DNA from: Amia ocellicauda
Lineage: Eukaryota; Chordata; Actinopteri; Amiiformes; Amiidae
Assembly (NCBI RefSeq): GCF_036373705.1
Contig: NC_089866.1
Location: 20,560,501-20,624,500 of the forward strand
DNA length: 64,000 nt
Reading direction: 5' to 3'
The notes under the pieces: generated by a model
Database searches by the model: none
Seen by the model: the letters and a program-made list of their open reading frames with translations, nothing else
What the model was told of the DNA's origin: nothing
Made by a program: the position numbers and the translations under genes
Shown here: positions 8,673 through 64,000 of the stretch, in pieces
How positions within the stretch are numbered: the stretch's first letter is position 1
Layout: each line of letters begins with the position of its first letter

Positions 8673-8714
8673 TCCACAGAAGCAATCAATCAATCAGATT
8701 CCAAACTCTCCACC

Positions 8715-10153: not shown

Positions 10154-10170
10154 CTTTAAATGTCCACCCC
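10154..10170. other. Duplication junction filler
   Basis: Seventeen bases, CTTTAAATGTCCACCCC, lie between the end of unit 1 (GGCTGCTG, matching 15631-15638) and the start of unit 2 (TGAAATTTATG, matching 2840 onward). They match neither flank, as expected of end-joining with a short insertion. Confidence 0.7.
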
Positions 10171-10623: not shown

Positions 10624-11566
10624 ATGATGAGGACTTCTTGCTCCATCTAGCCCTTAATACTCAATTTGGTTGTCCTATAGAGAGCTTTAAATCACTTGAT
10701 AGAAAATTAACATTGTGATTTTAAGGGGCTCTGAACACCACATCAGACTTTCATTTTGGTCTCAGAAGGGAAGTTATAAGGTTAAAACTTTAGTATATGA
10801 GGTGTGAACTGAAATGTTATTAATATCTTAAGTGGTTTGGTCAGAAACGCAAATTAAAACTTCAGCCAATATGTATTTCAAAGGTTTAACTTAACTAGCA
10901 ATTTATAAACTGAAGGTTGGTCAACTTTGTTTTGTCTTCTAGCGCTCTCTCTAAATATTACATTAAGTAAACACTTGAGAGAAGATTTTTGATGGATTGC
11001 TTACTAGATTGAATGTTGGAAGATAGGGTTGCTAAAATAACATAATAGTAATACAATTAGACCGCTTCACAAGCTAATTTGTAAATGTTTGTAAGGATAT
11101 TACTACATTGGAAGTATTATTTATGTTGAAATAAAAAGGTATTTTACAGTGTATTTGTGCCAGTTAATGGTGCCATACTATCAGGGGCAGTGTATAGTTG
11201 ATGAGTTTATTCAAACATTCAACATGTGGCTTTCAAAGGTTTCAACATACGATTTTGAACGTGTATGAGCTGGTCAAGTTGTCTGGAAGTGAACTTGCAC
11301 ACAATTCATTCTCAAAAAGCATGTTGCAATGAATAAACAACAACATCCTCAAAGGAGACCAAAGTTTTATATTTATTAACCTAAAGATTGCTTTAGTGCA
11401 GTGTTTTGGAGTAATTCACAATTATATCAGACCTTTGGCAACCAAGAGAAAAGCAGCTATACAGAAATGAGGAGAAAATAAGTCAAGAAAGGGGCCAGTC
11501 CACAGTTTCTATACAGTAAATAAAATAGATATAAAATGCCTTTTGTATGTATGTGTGTCTTGTATG

Positions 11567-11572
11567 TTTATT
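11567..11572 (-). terminator. Candidate DENR polyadenylation signal
   Basis: AATAAA on the minus strand, about 55 bp beyond the DENR stop codon at 11627. It is a perfect hexamer in the expected place, but other AATAAA-like sequences lie further on, so the 3' end is not fixed. Confidence 0.4.
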
Positions 11573-11626
11573 TGGCCAGGTCATGGTGTTGCGTTGCATT
11601 CCTCAATAAAAGTGCAGGTTGGGTGA

Positions 11627-14600: not shown

Positions 14601-15419
14601 AAGAAGTTGCAGAAAAAGCTTGCGTGGCATGAGTCAGTTTCCTGACCGGGGCCTCGAAAGCAGAGCACCACACCTTGTGCAGCACACACTACCAACACAT
14701 ATCTTCAAATCATATTTTAAACATGGTGTTACACCTCAAAACATCTCCTGTGGAGACCTTGATCCACCTCCCAGCTTGGAAAAAATACGGTTTGGTGATG
14801 AGGTTTATTCTGTGATTTTTCACTTTGATAAGAGGACATAATACATTTGCCTTTTCAATTTTGACATTAAGCACAAAGCACAAGCGCAAGTTTGCATAAA
14901 CGTCAGCAGCAGCAAGATACTGATTTCAATACAAGCTTGAAAACCCACAGAAAAGCATTACTATTAAGCAATAACATTAAATTACAATATTTAAGTATTA
15001 AAAGCAGCACAGACAGGGAACGTTTTTATTTGGACACAAAGGGAACTTTTTCCAGGGCAGTGAATCAAGTGAAGCAACGTCTAACTTGGTATTTACCGAA
15101 ATGTGTCAAGCAGGACATGCTTACTCAAACAGCAGTGTAAATAAGAAGGTTGTGTAGATCCAGGGTGCATTTCCTTCCTTACCTTCATGACTATTTTTTT
15201 GTTTTTGTTTAGACTAGTTTAATGCATGTCACACAGTTGCATCGAAATGAAGACTGACTAAGCCTAAGACTAAGTCTCCTCATCCCCCGGCTAATATATA
15301 TATACATACATGTATACATAGAGCTCTGGAAAAAATTAAGAGACCACTTAACATTTATTTCTGAACTTGGGAGTGGTCTCATTTTTTTTTACAGAGCTGT
15401 ATGTATGTATGTATGTATG

Positions 15420-40500: not shown

Positions 40501-43500
40501 AGCAAAATATCAACCAGACTGTTTATTTATTTATTTATTTTTTTTGGGTCATACAGGTGCTGCTGTTTAATGTTTTCATAATGCAGTCAAGGTCAAATGG
40601 CTCCCGTGCAATATCCCACATAAGTTCTGTTGACACTTTCATCTTGTGTGGGCTTTTTCCTGCAAATTCTTCCCTGTTTCCCAAATCCAAAGAAACATAA
40701 TAGTATAAACATTGAAATACAGTTTAGATAAGGCTAGAGTGCAGCTGCTGGAAACAACATTACTCCCTTCTGGCCTATTACCTCCCTTCTGAGAGACCTG
40801 ATGCACACAGGAGCTGACTGTGGATAGGGGATGTGGAAATAAAACCTGTTGAATACAACTCATTGAATCTGATCTGCTCAGATGATTCAGTGACGAGGGG
40901 ACTAGTAAAGAGTACATCTATTTTACTAGTTTTTTAGTCTGTCACAGTTTAATTCCTGCAGGCCTTTCTTGTTTTTCCACCATCTTCCCAGAGTTCACTC
41001 TGCAGACCCAGCTGTCAGATGGCCACTTCAGTTCCAGAGGGAAGGTGTTTTTGTTTTTATAATCACGTGAGCGGGAATTCAGGACAATGTCTGCATCACA
41101 CTCAAATAAGTACACGCAGGCTTAACCCAGGCCTGTTTCCATACATACCACTAATGTCCCTTAACTTGCGTAACTCATGTTCTTAAGTCATTTTTTTTGT
41201 TTCCTGTAAGGTAGCAGAAATGCATTGTGAGCTTGTTTTCTTTTTAATCACTAAATGGACATCTCACACCTTCTCCCCACACAAACCTCTGTACACTCAG
41301 GTGGAACTTGTGGCATCTTCTCTTTGCATCACAGTGCGCTGACATAACATTGACATGTCGGAGGACAGGAAGGAAAACCTTGCCTGGCAGGGCTGGGCGT
41401 CAAGCTGTGCTATGTGAATGGTAGTGGGATGGCGTTTCCTCCCCTCCAGGGTCTGACCGCTGGGTGGGGTGCTCCCAGCAGCACGGCCTCGCAAGGCACC
41501 TGTGGTGACCATGGAGACCAGCCTCCTGCAGGAAGAGGAAATGAAGGGGCCGGATCAGAGCAGAGGCCTGGCATTGTTTCCAGGGGCAAATGAAACGTGA
41601 TTGGCTCAACAAACTATGAAAGCCTCAAAGTTTCATATCAGTCCCGCAGTGGGATCGCACAATAGGAAGGCTAAGATTATTTGTATTATTTTAACTGTCT
41701 ATGGTGATTATTTGTATTGGAGGAGGAATCCTTGTATGGTAAGGCAGGTATAGCTGCAGTGGGACTCATGGTTTATTTGAATAATGCCAACGGGTGCTGC
41801 ATGCCTTGGTTTGTATCTGCATTGTTTAGTGCCCCTGGAATCCCAGACATTCAGGAAAACCAGCTTCGAAAAAGCAGGGGAATCTCACTCTGCCAAACAA
41901 GACGTCTTCCTCATCGCTTCGTGGGCAGGCCGAATGTGATCCGACACAAATAAGTGTGGCTGTGTCTTTCCACAGTGCTGGTCTCTGTTAACCCTACAGC
42001 TGTGCTAGTGGACAGTGGACAATAAGTCAATGTGCTGAACCAGTCTTATTATTTAGACTGGAGTATTGAGAGATGGCATTCAAGTTTCCTTTTGCTCTTC
42101 AGATGAGATAAAAGATTATCAGCCATTACCTATAATGTTCCATTATCAGTTGGAGCCTGAACTTAGCAGTGAAAAGATTTTCTTTCTAAGAGATTACAGT
42201 AGAAGAGCCAGTGTAGGACCTCATTCTGCCCCACATCTATACAAATTCAGATAGCATTGGCATATTAAAAAGATGAATGATTATGGTTTTATAAATGTAC
42301 CAGATATCTGGTACGGATAATAACTTCTGAATGCATTTTACATAAGAGTATTTGCTGGATAGTATATTTTCATTTTGTTTTTTAAATATATATACATTTT
42401 AGATGCATGGTATTATATACATTTTGTTTTGCTTCCCTCTGCACTTTAAGTAGGCAATAGCTTGATATTAATATAATTATAATTTAAGGAGTGAGAGTCT
42501 AGAGGCCAATCTATCATTACAACATTGAGTGCTGGGGGGAGGAGGGAGGTTTGTTTTGCCAGTCTAAAATATGCACACCTATGTCATTCCAAAGGCATTA
42601 CTACTCCTGTTGTTGTCGGAGGCCTGCGAGATCCATCACTTTCACTGCAGTGTGAGGGGGGGCACATCCTCCACAAGCTCTTCACTTGCACAACTTTCTG
42701 TTCCCGGACTGCTGTGAAGCGCAAACATTGCTGCAGCAGTGAGTACAGGAGGCTGCATTGTCTCTGGCTCCAGAAATGCAAGCGTGTGTACCTGTGTACA
42801 GGAAGTAGGCCCCTGTCAAATGGTGGTGTTTTTGAACGTGACCATTTGCATGCTGCCCACATTTCTCCTCCGTGTCAACACCCTTCGCTGTAAAGCAGTC
42901 CTTCCTGCAGTTCTGTTTGAACACCGAAACGGTTATACTTGCTGCAGTGAGAGGACATAAATATCACAATTATCCATGCTTCTTTTCTATGTCAGTTTTG
43001 TTTTCCATTAATATCACATTTAAAACAAACAAACAAACAAAAAAAAAAGTTTGAAAATTCATCTTGTTTCAGCCACTGTTAGTCCCGAAAGTCTGGTAAC
43101 ATTCTCTTTGGTCTGGAAGGTCTGTTTCACGGTGTTACAACTTTCAATTATTTATTTTCACTTAAAAGAAAAAGCAATAAATTAAATAAGGAGGAAAGAA
43201 GAAAAATATGGAGTATTCTCTTAAAACCCTATTGCATTTCTACTGCCTTGCCTCTTCTGTAATCAGGATCTTCACCTTCAACTGCCACAGCTTCTATAGC
43301 CGTGTGAAAATGTACGTTGTATGAGCCTGTCATCGAATACACCGGGGTAGGCTACACTGCCCTGAAAAGAAAAAGCTTGCAGTGTTTTACAATCCATGGT
43401 TGAGTTATTTTTTTGTCACATAAAAAAAAAGAACTACTAGTGCTCTGGCGCTGCCAGGCTTGAGTTACTGACAATATAAAAGCAGAACTGCTCAAGAGCC

Positions 43501-46097
43501 ACGGGTCATTGTTCTGTGTGATACAGCAGGAGGGTAAGGAGGTAAGGAGAAACTTTGCACAAGAAACAACATGGTTGAAAGGTTTGAGGAAAAAAAAAAA
43601 TTAGTGTGAAGAAAGGACTGGTAAACAAATCCTTTTACGGGTCATCTGCTGCTACTGAAACCAGTATGGTGCCCTTATTTACTTTACTTGGAAGTGCACG
43701 GTCTTGCAGCTTTGAAAAAGTGGGATGTGTGGTCGTACGAGGTGGTTGCCCACAAGAGTCATTTGCTGGTCTGGACTCAATTCCATAAAAACCCACAGAG
43801 CGTGGCCTGCAAAAGCTTTCACATACAGTGGGGGAAAAAAAGTATTTGATCCCCTGCTAATTTTGTATGTTTGCCCACTGACAAAGAAATGATCAGTCTA
43901 TAATTTTAAAATTGTAGGTGTATTTTAACAGTGAGAGACAGAATAACAACAAAAAAATCCAGAAAAACGCATTTCAAAAAAGTTATAAATTGATTTGCAT
44001 GTTAATGAGGGAAATAAGTATTTGACCCCTTCGACTTAGTACTTGGTGGCGAAACCCTTGTTGGCTATCACAGAGTTCAGACGTTTCTTGTAGTTGGCCA
44101 CCAGGTTTGCACACATCTCAGGAGGGATTTTGTCCCACTCCTCTTTGCAGATCCTCTCCAAGTCATTAAGGTTTCGAGGCTGACGTTTGGCAACTCGAAC
44201 CTTCAGCTCCCTCCACAGATTTTCTATGGGATTAAGGTCTGGAGACTGGCTAGGCCACTCCAGGACCTTAATGTGCTTCTTCTTGAGACACTCCTTTGTT
44301 GCCTTGGCTGTGTGTTTTGGGTCATTGTCATGCTGGAATACCCATCCATGACCCATTTTCAATGCCCTGGCTGAGGGAAGGAGGTTCTCACCCAAGATTT
44401 GACGGTACATGGCCCCGTCCATCGTCCCTTTGATGCGGTCCAGTTGTCCTGTCCCCTTAGCAGAAAAACACCCCAAAGCATAATGTTTCCACCTCCATGT
44501 TTGACGGTGGGGATGGTGTTCTTGGGGTCATTCCCCCTCCTCCAAACACGGCGAGTTGAGTTGATGCCAAAGACCTCGATTTTGGTTTCATCTGACCACA
44601 ACACTTTCACCCAGTTCTCCTCTGAATCATTCAGATGTTCATTGGCAAACTTCAGACGGGCCTGTACATGTGCTTTCTTGAGCAGGGGGACCTTGCGGGC
44701 GCTTCAGGATTTCAGTCCTTCACGGCGTAGTGTGTTACCAATTGTTTTCTTGGTGACTATGGTCCCAGCTGCCTAGAGATCATTAACAAGATCCTCCCGT
44801 GTAGTTCTGGGCTGATTCCTCACCGTTCTCATGATCATTGAAACTCCACGAAGTGAGATCTTGCATGGAGCCCCAGACCGAGGGAGACTGACAGTTATTT
44901 TGTGTTTCTTCCATTTGTGAATAATCGCACCAACTGTTGTCACCTTCTCACCAAGCTGCTTGGCGATGGTCTTGTAGCCCATTCCAGCCTTGTGTAGGTC
45001 TACAATCTTGTCCCTGACATCCTTGGACAGCTCTTTGGTCTTGGCCATGGTGGAGAGTTTGGAATCTGATTGATTGATTGCTTCTGTGGACAGGTGTCTT
45101 TTATACAGGTAACAAGCTGAGATTAGGAGCACTCCCTTTAAGAGAGTGCTCCTAATCTCAGTTCGTTACCTGTATAAAAGACACCTGGGAGCCAGAAATC
45201 TTGCTGATTGATAGGGGATCAAATACTTATTTCCCTCATTAACATGCAAATCAATTTATAACTTTTTTGAAATGGCACTGGTACAGCCCCTGAGTGCAAC
45301 TTTCCTGGCTACGAGGGAGGATGGATCAGTGCCAGGCCTGAACAGGAAGCACTCAACACCTTAATGAGAACCAGACGGCTGTAAGGACACTGGACAGGGT
45401 TTGAGACTTGAGACGTGGATTACATGTAGGGTTTGCTTAAAATGTGATGCACTTGGCATACCATGTGATGTTCTTTATGATTATTATTTATGCATGTAAT
45501 AGTAAATGCCCTTACCCAGAGTGACTTACTGTAGTACTGTTTGCTTGCCACTAAAACTTTACATATTACAGTAAGTGCAGTTCAGTACAATATACAGCAT
45601 TGGTGATAAGCATCCAAAATCAATACAATAAACCGCAGTAGTATCAGTCTTACTTAAAGTGAACTACGATCTACAGAATGTTAAAACTACCCGTTTAATA
45701 TAGACTGTTAACTGTTCAGACAAATTGAAATAAAATTGACTTCTAATGGACTTCTAATTAACTGGGGAAGATATTGTGTATAGGGTCAGGCACTGAGGCC
45801 CCCTGATCTGTGGGTTGTTCCTGCAGTGTTTCTGGAGGCTTTCAGACCTCTTTCACCTCACACTCCAGGCCACACACTAATAATATGATCCCTTTCTGTG
45901 TCACTTGGAACAGCTGACTGGACTCCCCTAGCTGGTCTGACTGTTTGAAGTCAGGTTGCTATTCAGGTGAATGCATAACTGATAGAACTGCACTTTACAG
46001 AGCAGGTGGAAGAGAAAATGAACCCCTGTATTTAATTTAGAAAATGTGCTGTTGCTCGCCCATAATTACGGGAATGTGGACAGAGAAAAGACTGCAC

Positions 46098-46139
<42 letters not shown>

Positions 46140-47872
46140 GTTGGTCAATTTATTTATTATCCATGAATCTATATAGGAGATAATTGATGTTTAGATTCTG
46201 CTTTACAGGTAGTCTTGGAGTTTGACTAATGCTCCTGTCTCGTATGGTCTCGGCACCAGTGTACCATTAAGTTCTCTCATATTCTTGCAGCCATTGAAAA
46301 ATGATTCTTATAGCCGTGGGTCACAACTGGTGTGAAGATGAGATTGAGATTTGATTAAAGCTGCACTTAATCAGGATCGCAGTGGAAAAGCCTGTTGGTA
46401 AGAAGGAGAGTTGATTGGAACCCATGCCTCTTTTCCGTGAACACAGATGCCTCTTTTCAGGTCTTGATTTGATTGTGTGTGTGAGACGGAGCACATATGC
46501 ACTGTGAATCTGAAATTTCCATTGCTTTAGAAGCTGCACCTGGACTTTAATTTATTTACTGTTTCCCTAAATTCTCTTATGCCCCAGGAAGCTCACTCTG
46601 GCGACTGTCAGTATGTCTGTGGCTGCTCAGGCCTGGTTCCGTCCCACGCTTGGCAAGTGGGTCACACAGTGGCTGCAAGGGACACGGCCCCATATTAATC
46701 TTCTCACTCGGTGGACTGCTGTTGTGAGCAACTACACACAGCACAGCTCCGATACTTGTTTTTTGTGGTGTATATCGGTCTGTGATTAAACCTCTCACTG
46801 GTTGATTTAGTTGTGACCTCATTCTCCACATAACAGAAACCAGAGGAGTTCCTCTCTCTAATTATCAGTGCATCAGTTATCGTCTTTGGAATGTAAGCTT
46901 CCCCAATGCACTGTGGTAAACGCTGGAATTTGTCACTGCACTTATGTTTTTTCTGATAAATGACCCAGTCCGGTAGCTGGGGAGGAAAGTAGTGCTGTGC
47001 CCCCACTGGGCCCATTTAAAATCCAAGGCAACAGTACACACAGGCTAGATGCACTGACCAGGCCCAGGATTTTCACATTAAGGAGATCTGATCTGTTACT
47101 GCACTCAATATCCATATGATTAGTTCTGTACCCTTCTGATCATGATGCCAAGAAAAACCTTTCATCAGAAATCTGAGTTTGCCCCAGTCTTTTAACAGCT
47201 TGTGCACATTCCACCCTGCACGTTTAGCATCACACATCATTGTGCCCTGTTACACCACTTGTTGGCAAGTGATTTATTTTTTACTTATGTATGACACACA
47301 AAAAATTACCCTTGTTTTTTCATGTCGTACAGAGCGTGACATGTTATGGGTGTTCCTCCGTATGTAACCTTGAAGGCTAGGACTCGAAGTGTGTTGAATT
47401 AAGCTGATAAGGACTAGCATAAACAGGTGCCCTATGCACAGAGCAGCCCACAGTCTAGCACAGTCTCGGGACAGAGAGGCGTCTGGAATATGTCGAAGCT
47501 GAAGGTGCAGGATGCTTTGTTGAAGAACAAGGACGAAAAGGTGAGCGCAGGATCTGTCTTGGATCACTGATTTAAATGAATTGTTCGCTTGAAGCTCTAG
47601 TTGGGATATAAGAAGGTTCTGCACATAGGAGTCTGGCTCTTGCTCTGGTATCGGCTTTAAGACAGTCATGTAGATGTCACTTTGCCTGACCCATTTAGCT
47701 GTGGTGTACCGAGCCAGGGAGTTACACACACAGATTATTCCACATCTATAGTCTCATCCTGTTTGCATCATCTTAGACTCTGCTAGCGTGTTCCTTTTGA
47801 TTTATGTAATTGAGACCATAAAATTGGTCTTTCATCAGTGCTGTATTGTAGGAGTGTGAGCTGTAGAGCCTG

Positions 47873-47914
<42 letters not shown>

Positions 47915-50900
47915 ATTAGTGTGCTGAAGCAACACAATCCCGTCTGGTACAGAATTAGAATGAAAAGCCGTTAGTCACACCGGTTGAAACTAATCATAGT
48001 CTGAATGTCCAGCCGTGTAGTAAATTACTATTGCACTCCAATCATCTGAAGACAGTTACTTTAACGAGAGGGTAATCTGCTGTTTATCTTTATTTATTTA
48101 TTTATTTTAAGTGTCAGGCAGTGTAAATGCATTATAAATGCTTTCCCATGGCAACTCTATACACATGCCATCTGCCCTGTTAGAGGTGCCAGGCAGTGCT
48201 TGCCAGGGTCTGGAGAGCAGCCAGAGATCGCCCAGCTGATGCCCTCCCTGCACCGCTGGCACAGGCTCTCATTATCCCCCCACTGTCTTTCACTTGAAGC
48301 GCCGTCCGTCCGCAGTAATGAACCAGGGACACCAACGGCACCACAAGAAGGGTCTTCATTAACTTGGATCCCACTTCTAGTGTCTGTCCCACTCTTGGAT
48401 CTCTGTTAATTGGTGCCACAGTGGAGCTCTGTGTTCAGTGAGGTCACTGCTGCTGGCCCTAAATGATTTCTTTATGCAGTGGGAGCTCGCCGGCTGCAGG
48501 GCTCCTGAAACGGGCCTTTTTCTCCTTCTGAGATCATTTCCAGAAATGTCTGTGACTAAACCCCCGGGAATAATGAAACGCTTGCGCTGCATGCTTGTTC
48601 TGTACTTTGAAAGGGGGAGGGGAGGGCCAGGGATGAATGCACCATGGAATGAAAGGAACTTTTAGAATCTGTACAACCTGAACAGATCCATGAAGGAAAC
48701 AAACCTTAACAAATTGTCCATACATCATATCTGGAGTCCAAGAGGCTTCAGGGAGCCAGCATTTGACTCTCTAAACCTGTAATCTTTTGGTATGCCCTCG
48801 TCTCTGACATGGTGGTGGATTTACATCACTTAAGGAGCTTAGAACACCTTATTATTGCTGCCCAAAGCAACAAAGATTCAGATTTTTATCTTTTGGCTTG
48901 AATCCCATCAGACTTCCCAATATACATCAAATGAGCTCTCTGTTTGAATGCCATTTTGTTTCTGGATATACCAGTATCAAATGTAGGTCACCTGAGTTGA
49001 GTGCGCAGTAGTTGCTATTGTTACAAAGTCCTTTTGGTCTCCTCTGAGTGCTGGGAGTCCTGGGCAGGGAATCAGGGGAGAGCCCTAATTGGCTGATATT
49101 CAGTCCCCTATTGGGGGTTGGTTGTTCTAGAATGCTCCAGACCATTGTTTGTTTCTCACTCCCTCTCAAGTTCATTGTTCTGTTTTCAATGGTATTTTCA
49201 GTAGTGATAGTGAGGAGAACTAAAGGTACCTTTGTGAGTCTTCACAATAGAAGTATTTTTTGTTTTGTTGGTTTATGATTTTATATGCTTGAAAAAAAAA
49301 TACATCCATTTAATTCTTGCTGATTGTACACAAATGGACAGTACAGCTGGCATTGTGAATGAGTGGCTTACAGCTCTGTTGTAATGACTCTCCCCCACTA
49401 AATGTAGCCTTTTACAAATGAGTCGTCCTTCTGCCCACGACATCTGTCTCCCACTCCAGCATTTACAAAAAAATCCACTAAAGCAGAACAGTTTTGCATA
49501 CTAAGCTTAACTTCCCAGAGTTATTAAAATCCCTGTGGAGGGGAGGCTTTGTTTTGACAGTGCTGTCAGAGTGCTGTTTAGTGAAGTGCGCTGGGATTGT
49601 CCTCAGGAGAATTGGGAGAACACATTGCCGAGCTCTGTCGTTCTCGCTGTCAGTTTGGTCGGTGCAGAAGCTCGTTTACTTTAAGGCACAGGCACTGACA
49701 AAAAAGCTTGCACGTCAGCTACAAATAACTGTCTGCTCCCCGATAAAAAATATCAATTAAGTGGTTGTCACAGATGCACATTTGCACAAGTTGTCATTGC
49801 ATATTAATATGAAATTGGCATTGTGCCTTCCTGTGGTTTACTGGAAAACCTGGCTGCACACCTGCATATTTGCCAGATTGTCTTAAAAGAGATGGGGGGT
49901 CAGAGTCAATATGCATCCAGGGTATCCAGATGTGTGGTGGCAAGGGAGGGAAGGTCATATGGAGTTCAGCGGCCACATTGCCCAGAGTTACCGTCTGGGA
50001 GAGACCCAGGGGGGACCCAAGTTCTCACCCATGTAGCTCCGCAGTAGATGGGTGAACTGGTGAGAATGAAGAGGGCTCAGCAACTCTGGGAGCATAGTTT
50101 GCAGGCATCAGCTTTTCTGTGGTGAAGAGTGGGGCTATTTGGCTCAACTGCATTTCAATACTTTGTGTTTAAAGAATACATTAAATCCTAATATTACAGT
50201 AAGCGCCTGCCAGGAGTCCTAGAGTGTAAACCGATAAAAGAGAAGGTCGTTCTGTGGTGGTGTGGGTGGGTAGGAGTCGTGTACCGTAGAACAACAGCTT
50301 AGTGAGAAAAGCAAACGCAACCTTGTGGTCACAAAAGGATGTGCAAGGACATTCATGTTTCCTAGTGGGTTTTATGTGAAAATGAACATTGCCAGTAATT
50401 GCTTAGAATATACACGTTATGATTTACTTTTGCAGCATTATGCAATGAACTCAATTTGACATGCTTTTGATTATACAGTAGAATTGATTTAGGCCTATGC
50501 TAATGACCTGTGAAATATTGAAAATGAACGGTGCGACAGGCCTGTGTCGAAATAAACAGCAGGTTTTTCTGTTTTGTCGTTTATCCTCCAAAAGCTTTTT
50601 AAGTTTAAAAGAACTTATCCTGGTTCATATCTACGCATGATCTAAGTTTTTATTGGATTCCTTCACAATTCGAGAAACGTACTGCTTTGTGGGTGTAGCA
50701 CTTGCTCCACGGCTCCACCCTTGCAACCACAAACAAAGAGGTGTATTTTCAATCTGTCTGGAAAGTTTTTTTCTGCAAGTTTTGACACTGCCTAGTTTAA
50801 TAATAACTCACAATACCTATTGGTCTGTTTACAGTTTGATAGGCTTATCACAGGGAACCCAGGGCAGCTGTAGATTGGCTCTTGGTTCTTATACACACAC

Positions 50901-53900
50901 ACACACACACAGATGTACAGATCCATAAAAGCATCTCTCTGAGACCCATTCACTCTTTCAAACTCACCCTTGATAATGAATGGAAAAGTTTTCATAGTAG
51001 TGGGAATTCATAGGTCATGGGAAAATGTGGTAGATCTCCTTCTTGATCTTGTGTTTCCCAGCCGCTGACACCACAATAACAAGCGTGGTTGGACTTCACA
51101 CCAAAAGCCAAATGATTTTACTGTATTTCCTGGCACTGATAAAAGGACGAGCCACTTGTTTAAGTAACTCCTTTCTTTGTTGTTGTGGTCAGTGTTGTTC
51201 TGCCACAGGCTCTAAGTGCAAGAAGCTGTCAGTGTTTATGCTTTAAGAACCCTGCTAATCACTCTTTAAGTTTCCTTGCAAGCCAGTGCATCAGGGGTAT
51301 GTTTAGGTCAGGATCAAACCCCCTGGAGATTCAAACTGGTCTCATATTGTTCTCTTAAAGAGGATTCAGGTAAACAGGATATTGCACAATGAACTGTACA
51401 GGGCTAAAGCAAAATCCTACATGGTTTGGAATTTTCCTATAAATAAGTCAAATGTGGGATGACTCTCGCAGCATTTGTTTTGCCAATATGAAAAAAACCC
51501 AACTTCAGAAAAGCAAGTGATGCATGAATAAGTAATGGGAAGGTAATTTACAGAGATCCCATTGGCTGTATATCAGGTTGTATATCTGTGCAGAAATGGA
51601 GCCAGGAAGAGTGATAAGTGTTCACTATTATAGTGTCCAGGGGGGATTGTCTGTTGAATATTTCTGTGGCCTGATGGTCAAAGCTCTTTATATCAGTACA
51701 TCAGTATATATTCCAGTTATCATCCATTGGAGTTCATACACTGTGCTAAAATTAAACATTTTCCTGTTTATTATTGAGTGATGTTATTCATATTCCTGAC
51801 TGTTGAGTATCTCCTTACTCGGCAAAACCACAGTGGTGTTTCAGCTACATTTTGTATTTTAAATAAAATGCCCTTGGAAAAATGTTTTGTGTGCGGTTGT
51901 GTTGATGAAAATTCATTTTCATGTATCCTGTTGATCTTAAATGTCAAGTTTCCACGGCAACATTCGTATGCCTTGGTCCAGAAAAATGTTATTTTAAAAG
52001 CTGAGATGCATGATTTTGAATTCTTTGGATGTTTTCTTCAGAAACGGTGCATAGACTCACCTCATTGTGGATGACTCCTTATCAGCATGTCAGCGCAGAC
52101 TAGCGTGTGTGGGCTTCCTTGTCGTAGCTAGTTTGTTGGCTGCCGTTGTCGTTTTCAAATGGCCCACCATGCCACTTCTGCATACAGTGGAGCACTAATG
52201 GAGTTTTCCTCATTTGGAGGGGCTTTTAGGAGCCAATTTGCCAGCATCTACTTTAATTTGCACTTGACTTACCACTGCTATGCTGAGGGTTGATTTAGTC
52301 ATAGACATGCAGGCACACACCCATGCAAGAGTGTTTGGCAGTGTGTTTTAACCCGGTGTTTTCTATCAAGGCAGAAGTGTTTGTTCAAGGATCATCTCTT
52401 TGCCTTTGGATTAGGTGTGATGCACTCCTCTAGTGTCAGCCTCACTTTCTCATTCTCTTCTCTGACTGGGGTGTGATCTGGGATCCGGTCCAACGTGGCA
52501 TTAAATGGAGTCGATTTAGGCAAGTGATGGAGACTGATGCCCTTGGGTGGGGAGTGGGGGCCGAGGGGGGGTGGTCTAATCTGAGAGGAGCAAACTCGCT
52601 GAGATTGAAGACGTGAGCTGGATCTCCGCCCAGGCTTCCCTAGGAAAAGTAAGTGGTTGAAAGTCTGTTCGCTTCAGCTCAGACAATCTTTCTCACTGCA
52701 AGACCCCAGCTACAGGTTCCTTTGCCATATATCCTCCATGACCAGTACCCAGATGGACAGTGTCACCTTGGATCCATGCCATCCTGTGCAAAACCTTGTT
52801 TGGAATGAAATTGAAATGCTGAACCAGGGGAAGGATTTCTGCAAGGCCATGAAAACCTGTGCCAGGGCACTTTCCTTCAGCAGCCAGCCCTTCACGTCAA
52901 CCAAACCAGCTCTGAAAGGTCTTAATTCCATCCTGCACTATTCACACAATCTCTCTCTCTCGATGTTGCTGACAGATGCAAACTGAAAGTGTGAGTGCTG
53001 GTTGCAGGATGTATTTTCTGTAATAGCCGTAAGGGCAGGAAATTGCAGGGTGATGCTTTTTCTGTCAAGTCCTGTGCTGTTACTGTTCAGATCATGGTCA
53101 AAACAGTACAGTAGTTTGACACCTGGACAGGTAACATACTGCCTGTGTGTGCCAAACATGGGCAAGGGATGGTACTGCTAAGAGGCCTAGATATTAAAAT
53201 AAGGAAGTACAAAAATAGAACACTACAAATACAATTTCATTGAACAAACATGTTCTTATCTTTACAAACCGCTGTTATAATGTGAAAGCAGTTGATCTGA
53301 CCTCCACCTCTCCCTCTTTTTTCAGTTGGCCAGCATCAGCAAAGCCATCAACAGCACTGAGACCCCAGTAAAGGAGAAGCATGCACGCAGTATCCTTTTG
53401 AACAGTGAGCCCTCAGTACACGCTGCCAGAGAGCACACGATTGCCAACAGCACTGGGACAACAGTCACATTCCCAAACACAGCTGCTTGGGATGAATTGG
53501 ATGAGATGCAGTGCCCCCCCCCACCTACTTCCCACAGTACAGATCTCTACCAGTTTTGTAATTACTATTCATCACAGAGGTGTCCTGTGGGATTAGGGTC
53601 AGACTGAATTGTTTTCAGTGCTGATCTTGTTACTCTCCCACTTTTGATGGGCCTCACAATATTAATACAGTCTGCTCTCTTCTACATTATCACAACTGGT
53701 CACTGGCAGACATGCTTTTGCTGATGCACACTTCAGTACAGGAAAAAACTACACTGCTTCCCCCACACAAAAACAAACGCACAGTGAACAATAGTGTATT
53801 GGATGTGGCACTTCAGACAGCTAGGCATTAAAATAAAGGTTATTTAGATAAATCATGTTGGTTGTCAGGCTATATATCTGTGGCGGAATGCACTTTAAAC

Positions 53901-56900
53901 AAACAGAAGCAGGAAGAGTGATAAGTGTTCACTATTATAGTGTCCAGAGGGGATTGTCTATTGAATATTTCTGTGGCCTGATAGTCAAAGCTTTTTTTTT
54001 ATCAGTACATCAGTACTTGTTGGAGTTCATACACAGTGATAAAATAATTGTTCCTGTTTATTGTTGAGTGATGTTATTCATATTCCTGACTGTTGAGTGT
54101 CTCCTTTCTCACCAACATCACAGTGCGGTTTGTTACGTTACTTACATGATACTAGTCTGAAAATAGTCAGGCCTGTGGGTGGTGTGTGTGTGTGCGCGAA
54201 GGGACACAGGTGTTGCTCTGCTGTGTCTCTGGAGGGCTCTTCCTTGACTCCTGTGCATGAATCATCCTCGGGACGCACCGTGAGAAAGGAGCCTTCACGT
54301 TCTGGTCGTACGCGCTGGGCCTGCCCCTGGCCAGCAACTCCATCCTCAGCTGGAAGTTCTGCCATGTCCTGCACAAAGTCCTGCGAGATGGGCATACCAA
54401 TGTGAGTGAAGCCTTCTTATCTCCTGCCTTATTAAACACCTACCCACCCACTGAGACGGCCTCTGCACAGTGCTGTAGTGTTGGAGTCCAGCTGAAATTG
54501 GACTTCCATGAGGCTGTATTTGTAGGCTTTATAGGCACACCTTGCGTAGAGTAGCTTCTAAAATATGCCTGATCATTTTACTGTGCAGACTATTTGCTCT
54601 ATAACTTCCAAATTGTACATGCTTACAATGTAAATGTTATTTTTGAATGCTGATTTATTTATTAAATTATCAAATGATTAGCCCATTTAGCTCCGAGACA
54701 GAGATGCATAAGCCAGCTAGTCTCAAACGACTTGTGTTGGTTTTGATGGCTCTGCTGGGTTTGTGTTCCTCAGAGCCTGCAGGACTGCGCGAGGCATCGG
54801 AGCAACATTCGGGAGACGGGGGTTCTGTGGGTGAGTTTTCTGTGGAGGTGCTGAGTCATTCGCCTCATAGGATCTGAATGGAGCAACGCAGTGAATGGAG
54901 CATGTTGGAGTGCATGTGTGTGACATATTTGATTAACAAATAACTAGGAACCTTTTAAGGGGAAATGACATAGGAGGAATGTTGATGTGGGAAGAATAAA
55001 GTACCCATTTAATATGTATTTTTTTAACAAACCAAACTGGTATATGTTTATATTCTGTACAGCTCTGAAGTGGGAATTTCTTATTATAGGAGGGTAGAAG
55101 GTATTCTATGGAAGATTTATTAATATTATTTTTTTCCAAGGGTAACTTGCATGATCTATATGGACAGCTTGTTGCACTTCACTGCAAGCTCCTGTGCACG
55201 AAGATGGATTTCCACATGAAGGTAAGAGAGCCAACCACTTTCTGCAGGTGCATCCCTTGCACTTTCCCTCGCTGCTCTGCTATTAACAGCCCAGAGGTTG
55301 ACATAACCTTAAAGGATCCTTGACTACTCTGATTGATATTGCCTTGTAAATCTAACATAACACAACTCGCTCTACCTGTCATTACTAACCAACTCCTGCA
55401 ATCTATTTTGTTCGGTTGTTCTGCCTTCTCAATCGGTTTCCTAAGTAACGTTTCATTACTTATTATATATTATTTAGTTCTAGGATACCATCAAAATGGT
55501 TGTGGCTGTGATAACCTGCCAACACACACACAGCTTTCCTCTTCCTGCCATCTCAGTCACAGGCACATACAGATATCCGTGTGTGTGTGATTTGTAATGG
55601 ATCATTTCTGACGATGACACTGCCAGTTTTCAAAATCTCTCTAAACCACATTTTATTTATCAGCAGTATCCAAAACTGTTTTTAAAGGCATGACTGACTA
55701 CATTTTGTATGTTCCTATAGGTGTCATCCTCAGAACATATTTGGTTGTGCTCAGATGCCCTTAGATTTTTGTTTAGAAGTTTGTTCACAGATCGTATACT
55801 TCCTATTATTTTCAACCTCTGCCTTCCAGTTGCAGCACCTTAAAAACTGTACCTTGGGGAGGCTAGGGTTTCTGGAAAAGCAGTTTGGGCATAGTGCTGA
55901 AAATGCATCTCATTTTAACTGCATGCAAATAAAGTTGTTTTCCTTAATTTAAGGTTAGATTTAAATGCCTCATTTGGCACATTGGTTTAAAGATGGCTGC
56001 CTCAGAGTGCATTCCTTCCTGGCTGACACCTTAAACATTAATTTGTTTTTTAATTAATTGGAGTAATAGTCTAACATCTTTTTTCTTTTATTTTCTTTTT
56101 TTCCAAAGTATCCAGATATCCGCCCAAACCTTGAGGCATCGGATGAAGTCCTGGAGCGAACAGCCGGCACTAACATCGACAACGTGTGAGTTTCTGTTCC
56201 ACGTGAGAGGCAAGAGGGAGCCCCAGAGGAATGTTAACGTTACATAAAAATTCATGACCATGAGGGCTCCCCAGTTGAACAGTCCTCTGCACTGTCAAAT
56301 TGCCCCCCCTACTTTTTGTTTTTGTTGTTTTTTGTTGTAAGTTTTGTCCACGATTTGTCAGTATAGGATAACCACCACCACCCCCCCCCCCCGGACACAC
56401 ATACACACAAGGATGTCCTTTCTCTTCCTCCCTCAGGCATCGTGCTTGATCAGGATAGTTGATTTGATAAAAACATGGAAAAACGTGTGCTGTACACTGA
56501 CTTATTCATTCACAATCTTTGCAATATGTCTCATGAATATTATATCTAAAAACAAAAAAAATCTTGCAATGTCTAAAAACAAGAACTGCAAAGAAAACGA
56601 GAACTGTTGACTTGATTTCTGGTCATAGCTTGGAGCTGTATCCATTTTACATTTATTTTGCTGATAAATTATGCATCTTAATTCTGCATAAAAATAACCA
56701 ATTTTCCTCATCTTGGACATAGCTACAGTGTGGAAGGCCTTATTAAAAAAAACATTCTATATTTATATGTCCATTTTTTTAGGTTGGTATTGGATGAATA
56801 AGTCGATGGCACTTTTATTGGAAGTGTACAAGACAGGGCAATGGGGAAAGGGAGAACTTAACTGCTAACCTTTTAAAAGGGTTATGAATCACTTTTTATT

Positions 56901-59900
56901 TTCTCCCTCAGTTTCCAGCTGACAGTGGAGGTGTTTGACTATCTTGACTGTGAGCTGAAGTTGGCAGAGACAGGTGAGTCACCGTGGCTCCTATGGCAAA
57001 GCAGGGTACAGTTCAATGAAAGCATTTCACATAGGTAACATGGGAAGAATAATGGATTTAAGCTGTACACAAAGGTGACTATATACTATTGTATAGTGCA
57101 GAACAAAGGTGAACAATAATGCAACTCGAATAATGCCGAATGTAAGCTAAGCTCCTGATGCACTGAATAACACACAGAACTGGACTTTTTTACTGTTGTT
57201 TGGAGATAGTGTGTATTTCCCAGGTCTGGATGAATTTGCAATGCACTGAATAGGCAATAATGGGTGTTAAGTCAGAGAATGAACAGGCCCTTAACTTGAT
57301 TTAGTAGCTTTAATGAATGCTGAAAAGCAGCTCCAGTGAAGGACCAATAGAAGTTGTATGCAGACAATCTGATAACCATAGAAACTGGGAGAAGTACAGC
57401 ACGCCACACTTGCCCTCCCAGATTGCATTCACGACCGACACAGTCGCCACACCCCGCTGTACAGGAGAGTTCTGTGGCAGGAACACCTGTATTGTTTAAA
57501 CGGTACGCTCTGCTTCCTGTATGTAGGGGACTGCAGAATTGTTCATGAAACGAGCATATTACATCACAGGTGTAAAATAAATTGGGCACAGGTTAAATAA
57601 ATAAAATGATTCCAAAATGCATTCCTTCTAAATAAGTAGTAAGTAAGTATAGGTTCAATCTTGTGTAAGCAAAACCTTGTTAAACTGTAAGCATGTCCTA
57701 TGGGTGCTCCCTGTTCAGAGCCTGTGTGACCGGGGTTAAAAGTCTCAATGTGCCACTATGACGTACAATTCACAGGAGGATCTATACAAAACTGTTCCGT
57801 CTGACACACATCCACGATTTATTTTAAACCTATAAATATGTCAGTGATTTTAAATAGCCTGCAACCTCATGTTATCATCTTTGTGTCATTTGCTGCTAGC
57901 ACTGGCCATATGTGAGATCATTAGTGGTGTTTAAACCCTTTTGGCATTGCCAAGGTTTGCCCAGGAGAGACCATGCTTTGATGTTCTGCTCCCTGGGGCT
58001 CCTCTTCCTGTTTAGACTGGGTACACAATGTGGAAGTGTACTCTCTTATTGAGAAACACGCCGACCAGGATCTGTGGCCACTTACCCTACCCTGTCACTG
58101 CTGTGTGCAAAGTGGTAGCCTATATGTATACTTGAGGAAGTATTAGTGCTTTATTTGTGCTGTGTGTTTCTGCTGTTGCCCTAGGTCAGTGCCTGGGCAG
58201 ATATTTTCTAAGGACCAGTAATAGTAATAGGACAATCACATTGAAGGTGTCTTTTCTTTATTCATACTTTTCAAAGGTACAGTATTGTGCAAAAGCTTTA
58301 GGCAGGTGTTAAAAAAATGCTGTAAAGTAAGAATGCTTTCAAAAATAGACATGTTAATAGATTATATTCATCAATTAACTAAATCAAATCCATATTTGGT
58401 GTGACCACCCTTTGCCTTCAAAACAGCATCAATTCTACTAGGTACACTTGCACAGTCAGGGATTTTGTAGGCATATAGTCGGGTGTATGATTAAACAATT
58501 ATACCAAACAGGTGCTAATGATCATCAATTCAATATGTAGTTCGAAACACAATTATTAAATGAAACAGAAACAGCTGTGTTGGAGGAATAAAAGTGGGTG
58601 AGGAACAGCCAAACTCAGCTAACAAGGTGAGGTTGCTGAAGACAGTTTACTGTGAAAAGTCATACACCATGGCAAGACTGAGCACAGCAACAAGACACAA
58701 GGTAGTTATACTGCATCAGCAATGTCTCTCCCAGGCAGAAACTTCAAGGCACACAGGGGTTTCCAGATGTGCTGTCCAAGCTCTTTTGAAGAAGCACAAA
58801 AAAACGGGCAATGCTGAGGACTGTAGATGCCAAGGAAACTTACTGCAGCAGAAGAAAGACACATCATGCTTACTTTCCTTCGCAATCGGAAGATGTCCAG
58901 CAGTGCCATCAGCTCAGAATTGGCAGAAAACAGTGGGACCCTGATACACCCATCTACTGTCTGGTGAAGTCTGGTGGCCTTCATGGAAGACTTTCAGCCA
59001 AAAAAACATGCCTCCGACGTGGCAACAAGGCCAAGCGACTCAGATATGCATGAAAACACAGGAACTGGGGTGCAGATGGAGTTGGGGATTTGGTCAGAAT
59101 TAATGGTCTCCTCAGTGCTGAGAAGTACAGGCAGAGCCCTGATCTCAACATTGAGTCTGTCTGGGATGACATGGAGACAGAGAAGCAACAGTAGGCAGCA
59201 TTGTGCAGTAGTGGTTAGGGCTCTGGACTCATAACTGGAAGGTTGTGGATTCAAATCCCGGGCGGTGCAGTGCTGTTTTACCCTTGAGCAAGGTACTTCA
59301 CTTAGATTGCTCCAGTAAAATGCCCAGCTGTATAAATGGGTACAAATGTAAGTCACCCTGGATAAGAGTGTCCGCTAAATGATCAAAATAATAACAGAGG
59401 CTGCCTAAACCCACAGAAGAACTGTGGTTGGTTCTCCAAAATGTTTGGGCCAACCTACCTGCTGAGATCCATCAAAAACTTTGTGCGAGTGTACCTAGAA
59501 GAACTGATACCGTTTTGAAGGCAAAGGATGTTCACACAATATTGATTTGATGTAGATTATTCTTCTGTTCACTCACTTTGCATTTTGTTAATGGATAAAT
59601 ATAATCTATTAACATGTCTATTTTTTTAAGCATTCTTACTTTATAGCATTTTTTCACACCTGCCTAAAGCTTTTGCGCAGTACTGTGTATAGTGTGAGCA
59701 GCATGACACAGCATTTGCAGTCACTTTCACAGTGGAGAGTTAAACTTGCACATCCGGTGCATACTGTAGATTGTACTGACAACGCTGCTGCCTGGCATCT
59801 TACCCTCTGCTCCCATTTCCTCAGGCTTCAGGAATGCCTGTGGGTTTGGAGTTGAGTTTCAGCCAAAAGAGATTCTTAATTTTTTTTTGTTGGGCACATG

Positions 59901-62900
59901 ATCACTTTTACAACTGTAAACACCATGTGACTGCAGCTGCTGCAAAAACCACAGTGATTGAATCCAGGGACAGCACCCACAAGGCATGTGATCGTTAAAC
60001 CACTTGATGAAAAACCTAAATTAATATCTAGGCAGTTGGAAAGCACAGGTTTCGCCTCTGTGTCAAGAGGAGTTGTTTAGTGGCTGGGAGTGACATCATC
60101 AGTTCAGTGGTTTATTCGTTACACTCTAGTTGTGATGGGCTATCCTCCCCTGTCTCAGGCTGGCCTGGTGCATGGATGTGTGCGTATGTAGATGAAGCTA
60201 ACTCAGCCTCTTGTCTGTCCAGTCTTCCGGCAGCTCAACACCTCCATCGCCATCTCCACGACCACGTTGGGGCAATGCAGGCTGTCCCCACTGATCCAGG
60301 TGATCCAGGACTCCAGTCAACTGTACCACTTCACCGTCAAGCTGCTCTTCAAACTGCATGCCTGTGAGTGGCCCAGCTCTCCCTGCCTCTGGCCCTGACT
60401 CCTGCTAAATTGTGGCCCCAGACTCGGACACAGTGTGCCAGTGTTGTCAGCGTTTTGCAAAAACCCACTGAAACTTGTTGTGCTGTGTTGAACTTGTGTG
60501 TGAGTGGATTTGAGTGTCTAATAGATTTGTTGCCAAAGATGTCAAATGCATTCTTAAACATCCAACACTCACTGCTTTTCTAATGTAAGCTTACTTTGAA
60601 CTGTGGTGGCACAGTTTATTTAATCTGGGTATTCTATATAAAATATAAATATAAATATAATATATATATAAAATATTTGAGGCTGATCTTTGACAATGAC
60701 CAGAATATATCTAGTAATTATTTTGCCGTATTAACCTACATGTCTAGTTTTGTAACCAAATGACTTGATTCAAAGATCCCTTGTTCATGCTTTTTCCGAT
60801 GTTCTGTACAGGTTTGCCAGCAGACACTCTTCAAGGGCACAGAGACCGATTCCATGACCAGTTCCACAGGTAGGCGCGCTGCATTAATGCGTTGGTAGGA
60901 CCTATGAATAGACCTAAAAGGGGCAGCCGTCTCCATTTGCACTTGACTTAAACGGATGCAAATTAAATGCCACTGCAGGTCACCCAGCACTTGAAGCTCA
61001 GCCCACGAGCAATAATGATCGGCACAAGCACGTCTCCCTTCATGGGCCTCCCTGCCCAACTCTGGCAGGCGTAATTTACTTGATTGAACATTGTCTCCCT
61101 GTTTTATTGCATTTTGCTATAGCTAGAATGCAAATGAGTCACTGTGTTGAAAGTTGGCCAATTGTAATTTTTACATTAATCTTACACAGCAGCACCTTAG
61201 TTTTCCCTCCACTGTTCATAAGTATGTGGGCTCTATTCATGATATGTTAATGAATGCTGTGATTAAAATCTTGCTGCCTGGTTACCTTCCTCCCTCAGTG
61301 CAAAGGCCAACTTGGTAAAATTATCTCGGTTGTTATGGAGCAGGCCAGAGAAACCAGACAGTTTTATTAGCATTGTTAATGAAGAGGTTTATTCAGCCTG
61401 TGAGGAAAAACTCTTACTTTCAAGTATCCTGCATAAATATTTCCTTTGGTTTGTGTTCTTCTGTTAGGCTGAAAAACTTCTTCAATCGGGCCAGAGACAT
61501 GCTGTACTTCAAGAGACTCATCCAGATCCCCAAGCTCCCTGATGTAAGAGGCCAGATTTAACACAGTAACACTCTTTTACACTTAGACTTAGCATCCTTT
61601 GAGAGCACAGCACACTCGACCACATTTGACATGTATATGTGTGCCTGCATTAAAAGCCCTTTTTATAACATGACTAAATACATAAGTATTTAAAAAGTGA
61701 AGTGTAGTTTAATGATTGTTGTGCAGAACTGTTCTGCATTGAGTGCCAAAACCAACAGCCAAAGCTTAGTACAGGCAAAAAAAGGTTAATTGTATTTATT
61801 GGATCTGTTACTGTTCATAGGGTTAAGGGTTAAGCAATTGTAATGTGTGCAATGCAAATGTAAACCATACTCTTCAGTTGCTGATGAAGCGCTCTGATCT
61901 CTATCCAGGCTGTCAGACTCGGCCATTTACACACTTCAGTCCAGTTTCCCACAGTTATCACATTCTTCTAATTGTCAAGTTCTGAAATAAAATCCATCAT
62001 TTATAGTTATTTGATAGACGTTTTACTTGTTGTGCAGCGCAGTCTCATTACCTAGCTTCTGTTTGTTCTCAAGTCAGGAATGGCCCAGCTGTGGTGCTTG
62101 GTTGGAACCCTCTTGATGTTTTTCTGGTTTCTTCTCGCTCTCTCTCGCTCTCTTGCTCCGTATCCATTTGTATCTACCCATTCCTACCCTCTCCATCTGC
62201 TCTAAACCCCTGCTTCTCTACCACCTCTCTCTCTCTTGTCTTCAGTCCCCCCCTAATTTCCTGCGTGCATCTGCACTGGCAGAGCACGTGAAGCCCGTGG
62301 TGGTGATACCAGATGAGGAGCCATACGACGACGACCCCGAACCTCTGATTGAGGTCAGTGTGACGCCCCAGTATGAGCAGCAGATGCACCTACAGGCCCA
62401 GCCACAGGTACGTTATAGCACAGAGTTCTGTACAGGACCAGGCTATCAATAGGCCCAGGGTAAAAAAGGACGATTGATATAGAGGTCAGAGACACTTAAA
62501 TTAATGTATGTTGTTTCAGCCTCAGGACATACAGAATTTGATCAATTAATAAGCTTGTAGATAAGGCCATTCTGTTTTAATTGTATCATCATCAAATCAT
62601 CAGTCATCCTAAATCATTTTTTCTTTGTTGTTTTTTCCCCAGGCGCTGGACATATTTGATAAGACCTTCGGGCCTCCTAATGGTGGCTTTGATGAGAGGT
62701 GAGAATCTCTGGGGCTGGGGGAGGAGGTTTAAAGTTTAGTATTTTTTTCTGCTAAATACATACCTGAGATAACGGACTGCTTTCTAAGGGTGCAGTAATT
62801 ACAAAACTGATCAGGAATATGGGATGTACCAAGAAAACATATTTTGGTTCATTCCTGTGAAATATGGTTCAGTCTCCCTCTAGTGGCGAGTTGCTGCAGA

Positions 62901-64000
62901 GCATTCTGAGCTAAACGGTTGTGTGTCTCTCTGAGGGCTCATCCTGTCAGGATCTCTCTGATCTAGCTAAACTGTAATTTGAATGAATTAAGTATGAATG
63001 AAGCCCAGCTCTAACAAATCGCCATCTGAAAGAAAGATTTTTTTTTTTTTTCATCTTACTTTATAGCAATTAAGCAATTAATTTCATGTATAGCAAACAA
63101 AACAATGCCTTCTCCACAGGGATGTTCAGATAGACAACCTCAAGCGGGAGATTGAGATGCTCAGAGCCGAACTGGAGAAGATCAAAGCTGAGGTAAAGTG
63201 AGACGAGGTTTCAGATTAAGTACTGTTCATTATTCATCTTCTCATCCTGGAGTTTGCTCAAACTGAGCTACAGGTTACGCTGAGCTTGTGCCTCGCAGTT
63301 TCTTGCTGTGTATCCAGGGTTTTGTTATGGGGTAATCCTGCCCATTTTGGAGAGACATGCTCAGGTGGAATGCTGACTTTCAGTTTGGAATGGAAGCATT
63401 CACTTTTCTGTGTGTTCTCAGGCCCAGCGCTACATCACCCAGCTGAAGTCGCAGATCAACAGCCTGGAGGCGGAGCTGGAGGAGCAGCGGATACAGAAGC
63501 AGCGTGCCCTGGTGGAGAATGAGCAGCTGCGCATGGAGCTGGAGCAGCTGCGGCAGCAGGGCGTGGAGACAGAGAGCGTGCAGGCCAACTTCGTGGAGGC
63601 TGAGAGTGAGCGCCCCTGTCTGAGCACCCCATCAGCTACTGACACAGAACCCACAGAATAAACATTTGAAGTTACCTTGGATAATTACATTTGTATTTAG
63701 TATAGCGCCCTTCACAACAAATTGCCACAGAGCGCTTCACACATTGAGAACAAGAGCAAGAGAATAATAGTAACGCATCCACCCACACACACCGACACGT
63801 AGACCTATTTAAAAAAAAAAAAAAATAAAAAAAAAAAAGGCATCCAGAGAGACCACACGTGCCGTCATTATAGGGTGCAGCAATCCTCCCTCTGTGTGTC
63901 TGTTCCTGCTGCTGTGTCTGACCAACCCTGCATCCCTGTCCCTGCAGAGCGAGCCCTGGCCACAGAGCTGCGCTACACCAAGCTGAAGGAGAAGCACGCC
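37508..64000 (+). CDS. hip1r: Huntingtin-interacting protein 1-related, 5' part (runs off window)
   Basis: HIP1R links clathrin-coated pits to actin: the ANTH domain binds phosphoinositides, a coiled coil binds clathrin light chain, and a C-terminal talin-like domain (outside the window) binds F-actin. Coding exons: 37508-37600, 53326-53389, 54259-54401, 54774-54830, 55141-55221, 56109-56185, 56912-56973, 60223-60363, 60812-60869, 61468-61543, 62246-62407, 62643-62698, 63120-63192, 63422-63605 and 63948 to the edge. They total 1380 nt, 460 residues in frame. Exon 1 ends EKEQFDKQQ; exon 2 has SISKAIN and [12 protein letters not shown] motifs are [76 protein letters not shown] and [32 protein letters not shown] follows, then TFGPPNG and a heptad coiled coil from [18 protein letters not shown]. 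All junctions are GT-AG except intron 2, which looks U12-type. Intron 1 is 15.7 kb. Confidence 0.95.
38655..38850. mobile_element. Diverged hAT-like MITE relic
   Basis: CACCAGGGATTCCCTGTTCT and the following TTAATTGCTTAATTGAATCC / CTTAATTGAAC resemble the interior of common fish hAT-type MITEs and the intact element just downstream. One end and the target duplication are not recognisable. It lies in HIP1R intron 1. Confidence 0.45.
38899..39104. mobile_element. hAT-type MITE with 8-bp target duplication
   Basis: A 206-bp element with ends CAGGGGTGGCTAACCCTGGT and, at the right, ACCAGGGTTAGCCACCCCTC. They form about 30-bp inverted repeats with only the outermost base unpaired. The octamer GGCTAGTG directly flanks both sides (38891-38898 and 39105-39112), the target-duplication length of hAT transposases. 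No coding capacity. HIP1R intron 1. Confidence 0.9.
39113..43823. other. HIP1R intron 1, left part
   Basis: About 4.7 kb of intron with no exon, RNA gene or full transposon that I can support. It contains a T-rich stretch near 40530 and an A-rich one near 43040. The open frames, up to 131 codons, lack domains and are not joined by usable splice sites. Confidence 0.5.
43826..45274 (-). mobile_element. Tc1-like transposon, copy C, truncated
   Basis: Same family as copies A and B, inverted. The plus-strand left end is complete (TA at 43824-43825, then CAGTGGGGGAAAAAAAGTAT). The other terminal repeat breaks off at about 45274, after TTTTTTGAAATG, so its outer part of about 135 bp is missing and the sequence passes into unrelated GCACTGGTACAGCC. 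The leader palindrome is present. It lies in HIP1R intron 1. Confidence 0.93.
44036..45048 (-). pseudogene. Tc1 transposase, multiply broken (copy C)
   Basis: Starts [12 protein letters not shown] at 45048. Against copy B it has a Lys-to-stop change after LVNDL (44773-44775), a Cys-to-stop change in the KSCSAR motif (44704-44706), and one G missing in [10 protein letters not shown] (near 44475), which shifts the frame. The C-terminal part, with QHDNDPKH and the Glu of NPIENLW, reads openly to NKGFATKY-stop at 44036. Confidence 0.92.
46099..46134. repeat. (GT)n microsatellite
   Basis: Eighteen GT repeats in HIP1R intron 1. A second, similar run lies at 47874-47912. Confidence 0.92.
47874..47912. 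repeat. (GT)n microsatellite
   Basis: About nineteen GT repeats in HIP1R intron 1. Confidence 0.92.
51572..51840 (+). repeat. Dispersed direct repeat, copy 1 (HIP1R intron 1)
   Basis: About 270 bp sharing AGAGTGATAAGTGTTCACTA, ATTTCTGTGGCCTGAT and ATGTTATTCATATTCCTGAC with 53862-54130, in the same order and orientation, with small indels. There is no tRNA-like head or terminal inverted repeat that I can see. The two copies bracket HIP1R exon 2. Confidence 0.8.
53390..54258 (+). other. HIP1R intron 2, U12-type (minor spliceosome)
   Basis: The donor is GTATCCTTT directly after CACGCA, a perfect U12 5' splice site. TTCCTTGAC at 54240-54248 matches the U12 branch-point consensus, with the branch A eleven bases before the predicted acceptor. 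No usable AG lies between branch point and exon; the nearest upstream AG (54234) would enter a stop codon at once. Joining at CAT|GAATC restores KHA-R-R-IILGTH, as in human HIP1R. The intron therefore appears to end in AT, giving rare GT-AT termini. Confidence 0.75.
53862..54130 (+). repeat. Dispersed direct repeat, copy 2 (HIP1R intron 2)
   Basis: Partner of 51572-51840, inside the U12-type intron. It has an insertion near its left end (AATGCACTTTAAACAAACAG) and a gap near TCAGTACATCAGTA relative to copy 1. Confidence 0.8.
58669..59519 (+). pseudogene. Decayed Tc1 transposase (third family)
   Basis: Begins [20 protein letters not shown], with a readable helix-turn-helix ([20 protein letters not shown]). 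The frame is then broken repeatedly by deletions and stops. The catalytic region is split by the SINE at 59192-59391, and the C-terminal remnant ends near 59519. Non-functional. Confidence 0.85.
59192..59391 (+). mobile_element. tRNA-derived SINE nested in the Tc1
   Basis: A Pol III-type head with an A box (GTGGTTAGGGCTCTGGA) and a B box (GGATTCAAATCCC) is followed by a conserved body (CTTGAGCAAGGTACTTCACT, GCTGTATAAATGGGTACAAA). The tail is TGTAAGTCACCCTGGATAAG with GTGTCCGCTAAATG. The surrounding transposase sequence resumes directly after it, with a short AACAG repeat at each side as probable target duplication. It is about 200 bp. Confidence 0.88.
63690..63947. other. HIP1R intron 14 with A-rich tract
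   Basis: ATTTAGTATAGCGCCCTTCA with ACAGAGCGCTTCACACATTG resembles a dispersed fish repeat fragment, but the match is from general familiarity only. An A-rich tract lies at about 63811-63838. The intron ends at the acceptor CCTGCAG before exon 15 at 63948. Confidence 0.4.

Follow-up and report, generated by a model that had tools for sequence, protein, structure and literature searches.

A putative U12-type intron with GT-AT ends in the HIP1R gene of Amia ocellicauda

Non-canonical minor introns and the HIP1R locus

Minor introns of the U12 type do not all carry canonical ends. In a pan-eukaryotic survey (PMC10639083), non-canonical ends account for about 3.8% of the minor introns conserved among animals, and the majority of them are one base off canonical. 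Human G-type minor introns include GT-AG, GT-AT, GT-TG, and GC-AG members in the CENATAC study (PMC8280824). In addition, PMC4176328 reports that a 5' G in U12 introns can join a 3' G or T, and attributes the relaxed choice of U12 acceptors to the dominant part played by the branch point. Single non-canonical U12 introns whose orthologues are canonical have also been described, such as zebrafish actr10 with GA-AG ends (U12DB; PMC2831892). Here, we analyzed a stretch of 64,000 nucleotides (nt) from the Amia ocellicauda genome (NC_089866.1, positions 20,560,501 to 20,624,500; hereafter the window), in which intron 2 of the plus-strand gene HIP1R, at positions 53390..54258 of the window, appears to be a U12-type intron with GT-AT ends. 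The GT-AT minor intron is an already known and uncommon kind, of which the HIP1R case would be one more example. The first-pass annotation of this DNA, which had proposed the intron, expected it to bring new knowledge of U12 acceptor tolerance; this went too far, as GT-AT ends are already on record in human (PMC8280824) and a 5' G is described as tolerating a 3' T for its partner (PMC4176328).

Compared with U12 introns of the GT-AG subtype, HIP1R intron 2 has the same GTATCCTTT donor, the same TTCCTTRAC branch site, and a similarly short distance from branch site to acceptor, as well as a non-zero phase and, as judged by eye, no polypyrimidine tract, whereas it differs in its last base, which is T and not G, and in the exon base preceding the donor, which is A. 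It shares its termini and, by definition, its spliceosome with the human GT-AT minor introns listed in PMC8280824, but it is known here from DNA alone. As in zebrafish actr10, whose orthologues are reported to have canonical termini (PMC2831892), a single base sets the ends of a U12 intron apart from the canonical ones in one fish; however, actr10 departs at the 5' end and HIP1R intron 2 at the 3' end.

Splice signals and reading frame of intron 2

Exon 2 ends with CGC A (53389), the intron opens with GTATCCTTTT at 53390 and closes with ...CTTCCTTGACTCCTGTGCAT at 54258, and exon 3 opens with GAATCATC at 54259; on re-reading the DNA, the interval and the letters quoted for it in the first pass were found to be correct. 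We used RTATCCTTT as the U12 donor consensus and TTCCTTRAY as the branch-site consensus. The 5' splice site GTATCCTTT (53390..53398, plus strand) and the branch site TTCCTTGAC (54240..54248, plus strand) each match at 9 of 9 positions, and the branch A, at 54247, lies 11 nt from the last intron base, which bears out their earlier description as textbook signals. PMC3584512 gives 11–13 nt as the optimal distance between a U12 branch site and its acceptor and describes the polypyrimidine tract as typically lacking. The spacing in intron 2 falls within this range, and no such tract was seen by eye beyond the branch site, CTTCCTTGACTCCTGTGCAT consisting of the branch site followed by 10 mixed bases. 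Furthermore, U12 introns are reportedly biased against phase 0 (PMC7367187), and the phase of intron 2, which is 1, agrees with this bias. The assignment of intron 2 to the U12 type is strongly supported.

The plus strand of the window contains 3,833 GTs, of which only the one at the intron 2 donor is followed by ATCCTTT. Similarly, TTCCTTGAC is the only occurrence of TTCCTTRAC on either strand of the window, and relaxing the last branch base to Y adds one match, at 55940. The numbers expected by chance per window are 1.43 for the donor motif and 1.51 for the branch motif, so that each alone is unremarkable. When a first-order Markov model with nine allowed branch positions is used, the chance of finding both perfect signals at the places dictated by the exons is approximately 2e-8 per intron. 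We scored 11 further HIP1R introns, namely introns 3–13, as controls, taking the best branch-site match with a branch A 8–30 nt from the intron end. In these introns, the donor differs from the U12 consensus at 4–7 positions and the branch site at 2–4, compared with zero and zero for intron 2, and none of them resembles the U12 type.

The proposed 3' splice site is the AT at 54257..54258 (plus strand), in the context GCAT followed by GA, and it keeps the protein sequence KHARRIILGTH. Exons 2 and 3 joined in this way encode a product that aligned with the HIP1R ANTH chain 7ost (E = 7.5e-37; 60 of 67 residues identical) with no gap at the junction, and it matched the Pfam family ANTH (PF07651) with E = 1.4e-21. 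All four aligned ANTH chains, namely 7ost and three of Sla2, are gapless through the junction; the fifth match in PDB was a ribosomal protein (E = 0.58), a chance hit. We then tried 120 x 130 donor/acceptor pairs, with the first intron base at 53331–53450 and the last at 54150–54279. The conserved protein was obtained from two of them: the GT-AT pair and a TA-TG pair in which the junction slides by one base on a shared G, the latter being rejected for its implausible ends. The claim that only a junction after CAT gives ARRIILGTH is thus upheld, with this one-base shift as the sole companion. An in-frame start of exon 3 farther upstream is impossible, because the genomic in-frame codon preceding ATC ATC is TGA. 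As the ANTH register is kept by GT-AT alone, the implausible TA-TG shift aside, the DNA is best read as having GT-AT ends here, and we put the probability that HIP1R intron 2 belongs to the U12 type with these ends at roughly 0.8.

The HIP1R gene looks intact, with 13 complete introns inside the window, 12 of which are GT-AG, intron 2 being the exception. The coding part of exon 1 (37508..37600, plus strand) was located by local alignment with the N-terminus of human HIP1R (score 91, next best 28), and its boundaries were then taken from the DNA. Exons 2–14 were placed by tblastn with human HIP1R, and their edges were read from the DNA. Intron 1 (37601..53325, plus strand) spans 15,725 nt and has GT-AG ends (GTAAAG...TTTTTTCAG), likewise read from the DNA. 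Exon 2 (53326..53389, plus strand) also carries the opening base of the following Arg codon, intron 2 comprises 869 nt, and exon 3 (54259..54401, plus strand) encodes ANTH-domain sequence. Introns 3–13, all GT-AG, and exons 4–14 occupy 54402..63604 (plus strand), exon 14 being taken only to 63604. Joined, exons 2–14 give 411 codons with zero stops, and a pseudogene was ruled out on the basis of this open frame. Judging from its predicted product, the gene is HIP1R: its closest solved relative among the five PDB rows, which include no chain of the paralogue HIP1, is 7ost. Both the gene name and the intron number given in the first-pass annotation stand. Pattern searches for stray eukaryotic copies of HIP1R returned 18 matches in viral contigs and 117 in genome contigs, none of which is a relative. 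Rfam returned nothing at gathering scores over the whole window. Read-through of exon 2 into 53390–53406 (plus strand) loosely recalls KHARRIILGT, and the tblastn alignment ran into that part; this similarity is probably due to chance.

Choice of the 3' end and rival explanations

From the DNA we infer how the intron is spliced, that CAT serves as its acceptor, and how this acceptor evolved, as follows. The U11 and U12 small nuclear RNAs would recognize GTATCCTTT and TTCCTTGAC together, and the minor spliceosome would remove intron 2. The acceptor would be set by its distance from the branch A at 54247, the first usable YAN being CAT at 11 nt, and a cut after CAT would join CGC-A to GA-ATC, yielding the product ...KEKHARRIILGTH.... 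CAT most likely derived from a U12 YAG (or YAC) through a single substitution of the last base, a change that may have been tolerated because U12 acceptor choice leans mostly on the branch site and the distance. The mismatch at the last base is probably offset by the strength of the donor and branch site, perhaps at the price of slower splicing or increased retention. It is very improbable that the GT-AT end is fixed in the lineage and was long kept as an inefficient acceptor limiting the amount of HIP1R, so that weak pairing at a U12 acceptor would hold an endocytic adaptor in check. Rescue by adenosine-to-inosine editing was rejected: such editing alters A, whereas the final base is T, and the edited sites described in PMC4176328 are GT-AA and AT-AG.

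With the donor fixed, we listed all AGs in 54190–54329, all AC, AT, and AA dinucleotides whose distance from the branch A is 5–40 nt, and the junctions up to 45 nt from the branch A that are in frame and open. No AG lies between the branch site and exon 3, as stated in the first pass. After the upstream AGs ending at 54201, 54209, and 54234, a stop is met 20, 13, and 9 codons later, respectively, so that the "immediate" stop ascribed to the nearest AG was an overstatement. Downstream, AG 54284 is out of frame, whereas AG 54288 and AG 54291 are in frame and open; at distances of 41 and 44 nt from the branch A, they lose 10 and 11 residues, respectively. AA 54261, which is 14 nt from the branch A, is also in frame and open and loses one Arg. 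The first pass had left AG 54288, AG 54291, and AA 54261 unmentioned.

Some observations weigh against GT-AT. One is the presence of these three in-frame alternatives, and another is that the final T at 54258 is known from one assembly. In addition, a 5' G is stated to prefer a 3' G over a T (PMC4176328). Finally, exon 2 ends in A immediately ahead of the donor, and in phase 1 and 2 U12 introns of the GT-AG type, T is in excess and A and G are disfavored at this position (PMC7367187), which is a bias and no defining rule.

The last intron base, at 54258, could be an assembly error or a private or segregating allele, the real intron being an ordinary U12 GT-AG (or GT-AC) intron with the same end. 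CAT and CAG differ by a single base, the C at −3 suits both, and a non-canonical end is suspect when such ends make up only about 3.8% among the conserved minor introns of animals (PMC10639083). We nevertheless consider this explanation unlikely: the 411 joined codons run on without frameshift or stop and give no sign of poor sequence, and base errors in polished assemblies are, by our reasoning, rarer than genuine non-canonical minor introns. U12 splicing could also run to a different end, either AA 54261, which would make a GT-AA intron, or AG 54288 or AG 54291. Any of the three leaves the frame open, and the two AGs are canonical dinucleotides. Conversely, the distance of 41–44 nt is far beyond the 11–13 nt optimum (PMC3584512), 9 of the 10 residues lost with AG 54288 are identical in 7ost, and the four aligned ANTH chains are gapless here. 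As for AA 54261, a 3' A is not among the partners that PMC4176328 names for the U12 5' G, and the Pfam ANTH score is 77.2 bits with the AT junction compared with 69.1 bits with the AA junction. Splicing to any of these ends thus seems decidedly unlikely.

We give hardly any credence to a U2-type or twintron-like unit that uses one of the upstream AGs (54201, 54209, or 54234), or to frequent retention of the intron, with a premature stop and expression tuned by decay. Three AGs do lie between 54190 and the branch site, and a retained intron would reach a stop at the 73rd codon past the final complete codon of exon 2. However, the donor matches the U12 consensus at all nine positions, and the three upstream AGs, all of which meet stops, cannot yield the main protein. 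Such events are conceivable only as side products of an intron that is otherwise spliced at its GT-AT ends.

A minor intron in HIP1R was not found in the main texts searched, supplementary intron lists lying outside that search. Papers that mention HIP1R and U12 together concern membrane assembly, yeast endocytosis, and Anolis genomes, as far as their titles and the beginnings of their abstracts indicate. This absence is weak evidence of novelty. If confirmed, HIP1R intron 2 would be a further naturally occurring GT-AT minor intron, one whose donor and branch signals fit the consensus perfectly and whose gene is not mentioned as having a minor intron in the literature searched. It would also provide a clean natural case of how far a strong, well-spaced branch site compensates for a mismatched last base. 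Moreover, it suggests that HIP1R exon 3 could be put in the wrong place or lost by annotation pipelines that admit no ends other than GT-AG and AT-AC.

Repeats and other features of the window

An interspersed repeat lies inside intron 2 (53910..54131, plus strand) and is approximately 82% identical to 51603–51841 in intron 1. An origin of the splice signals from this repeat was rejected, as 108 bases separate it from the branch site and neither signal is touched. A perfect AT-type U12 donor, ATATCCTTT, occurs at 32615–32623 (plus strand); it was dismissed as a second minor intron, since no exon was seen before it by eye, and it probably arose by chance.

Outside HIP1R, the window contains a direct duplication of approximately 4.9 kilobases, at 2840–7730 and 10171–15062, with 98.9% identity between copies, which is either recent or a haplotype assembly artefact. 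Judged by eye, it contains a DENR-like exon as well as a portion of a receptor-like gene close by. A frame of 370 amino acids resembling a seven-transmembrane receptor lies at 2214–3326 (minus strand), with a truncated second copy at 10112–10653 (minus strand), both identified by eye. Four copies of a Tc1/mariner-like transposase element, its family assigned by eye, are located at 4858–6461, 8332–9937, 12190–13793, and, inverted, 43817–45274, and the listed pairs are 96.3–97.7% identical. One copy contains a frame at 8598–9728 that is open for 376 amino acids, and the other three are interrupted. A further transposase-like frame of 278 amino acids at 29537–30373 (minus strand) appears, by eye, to be unlike the four Tc1-like copies.

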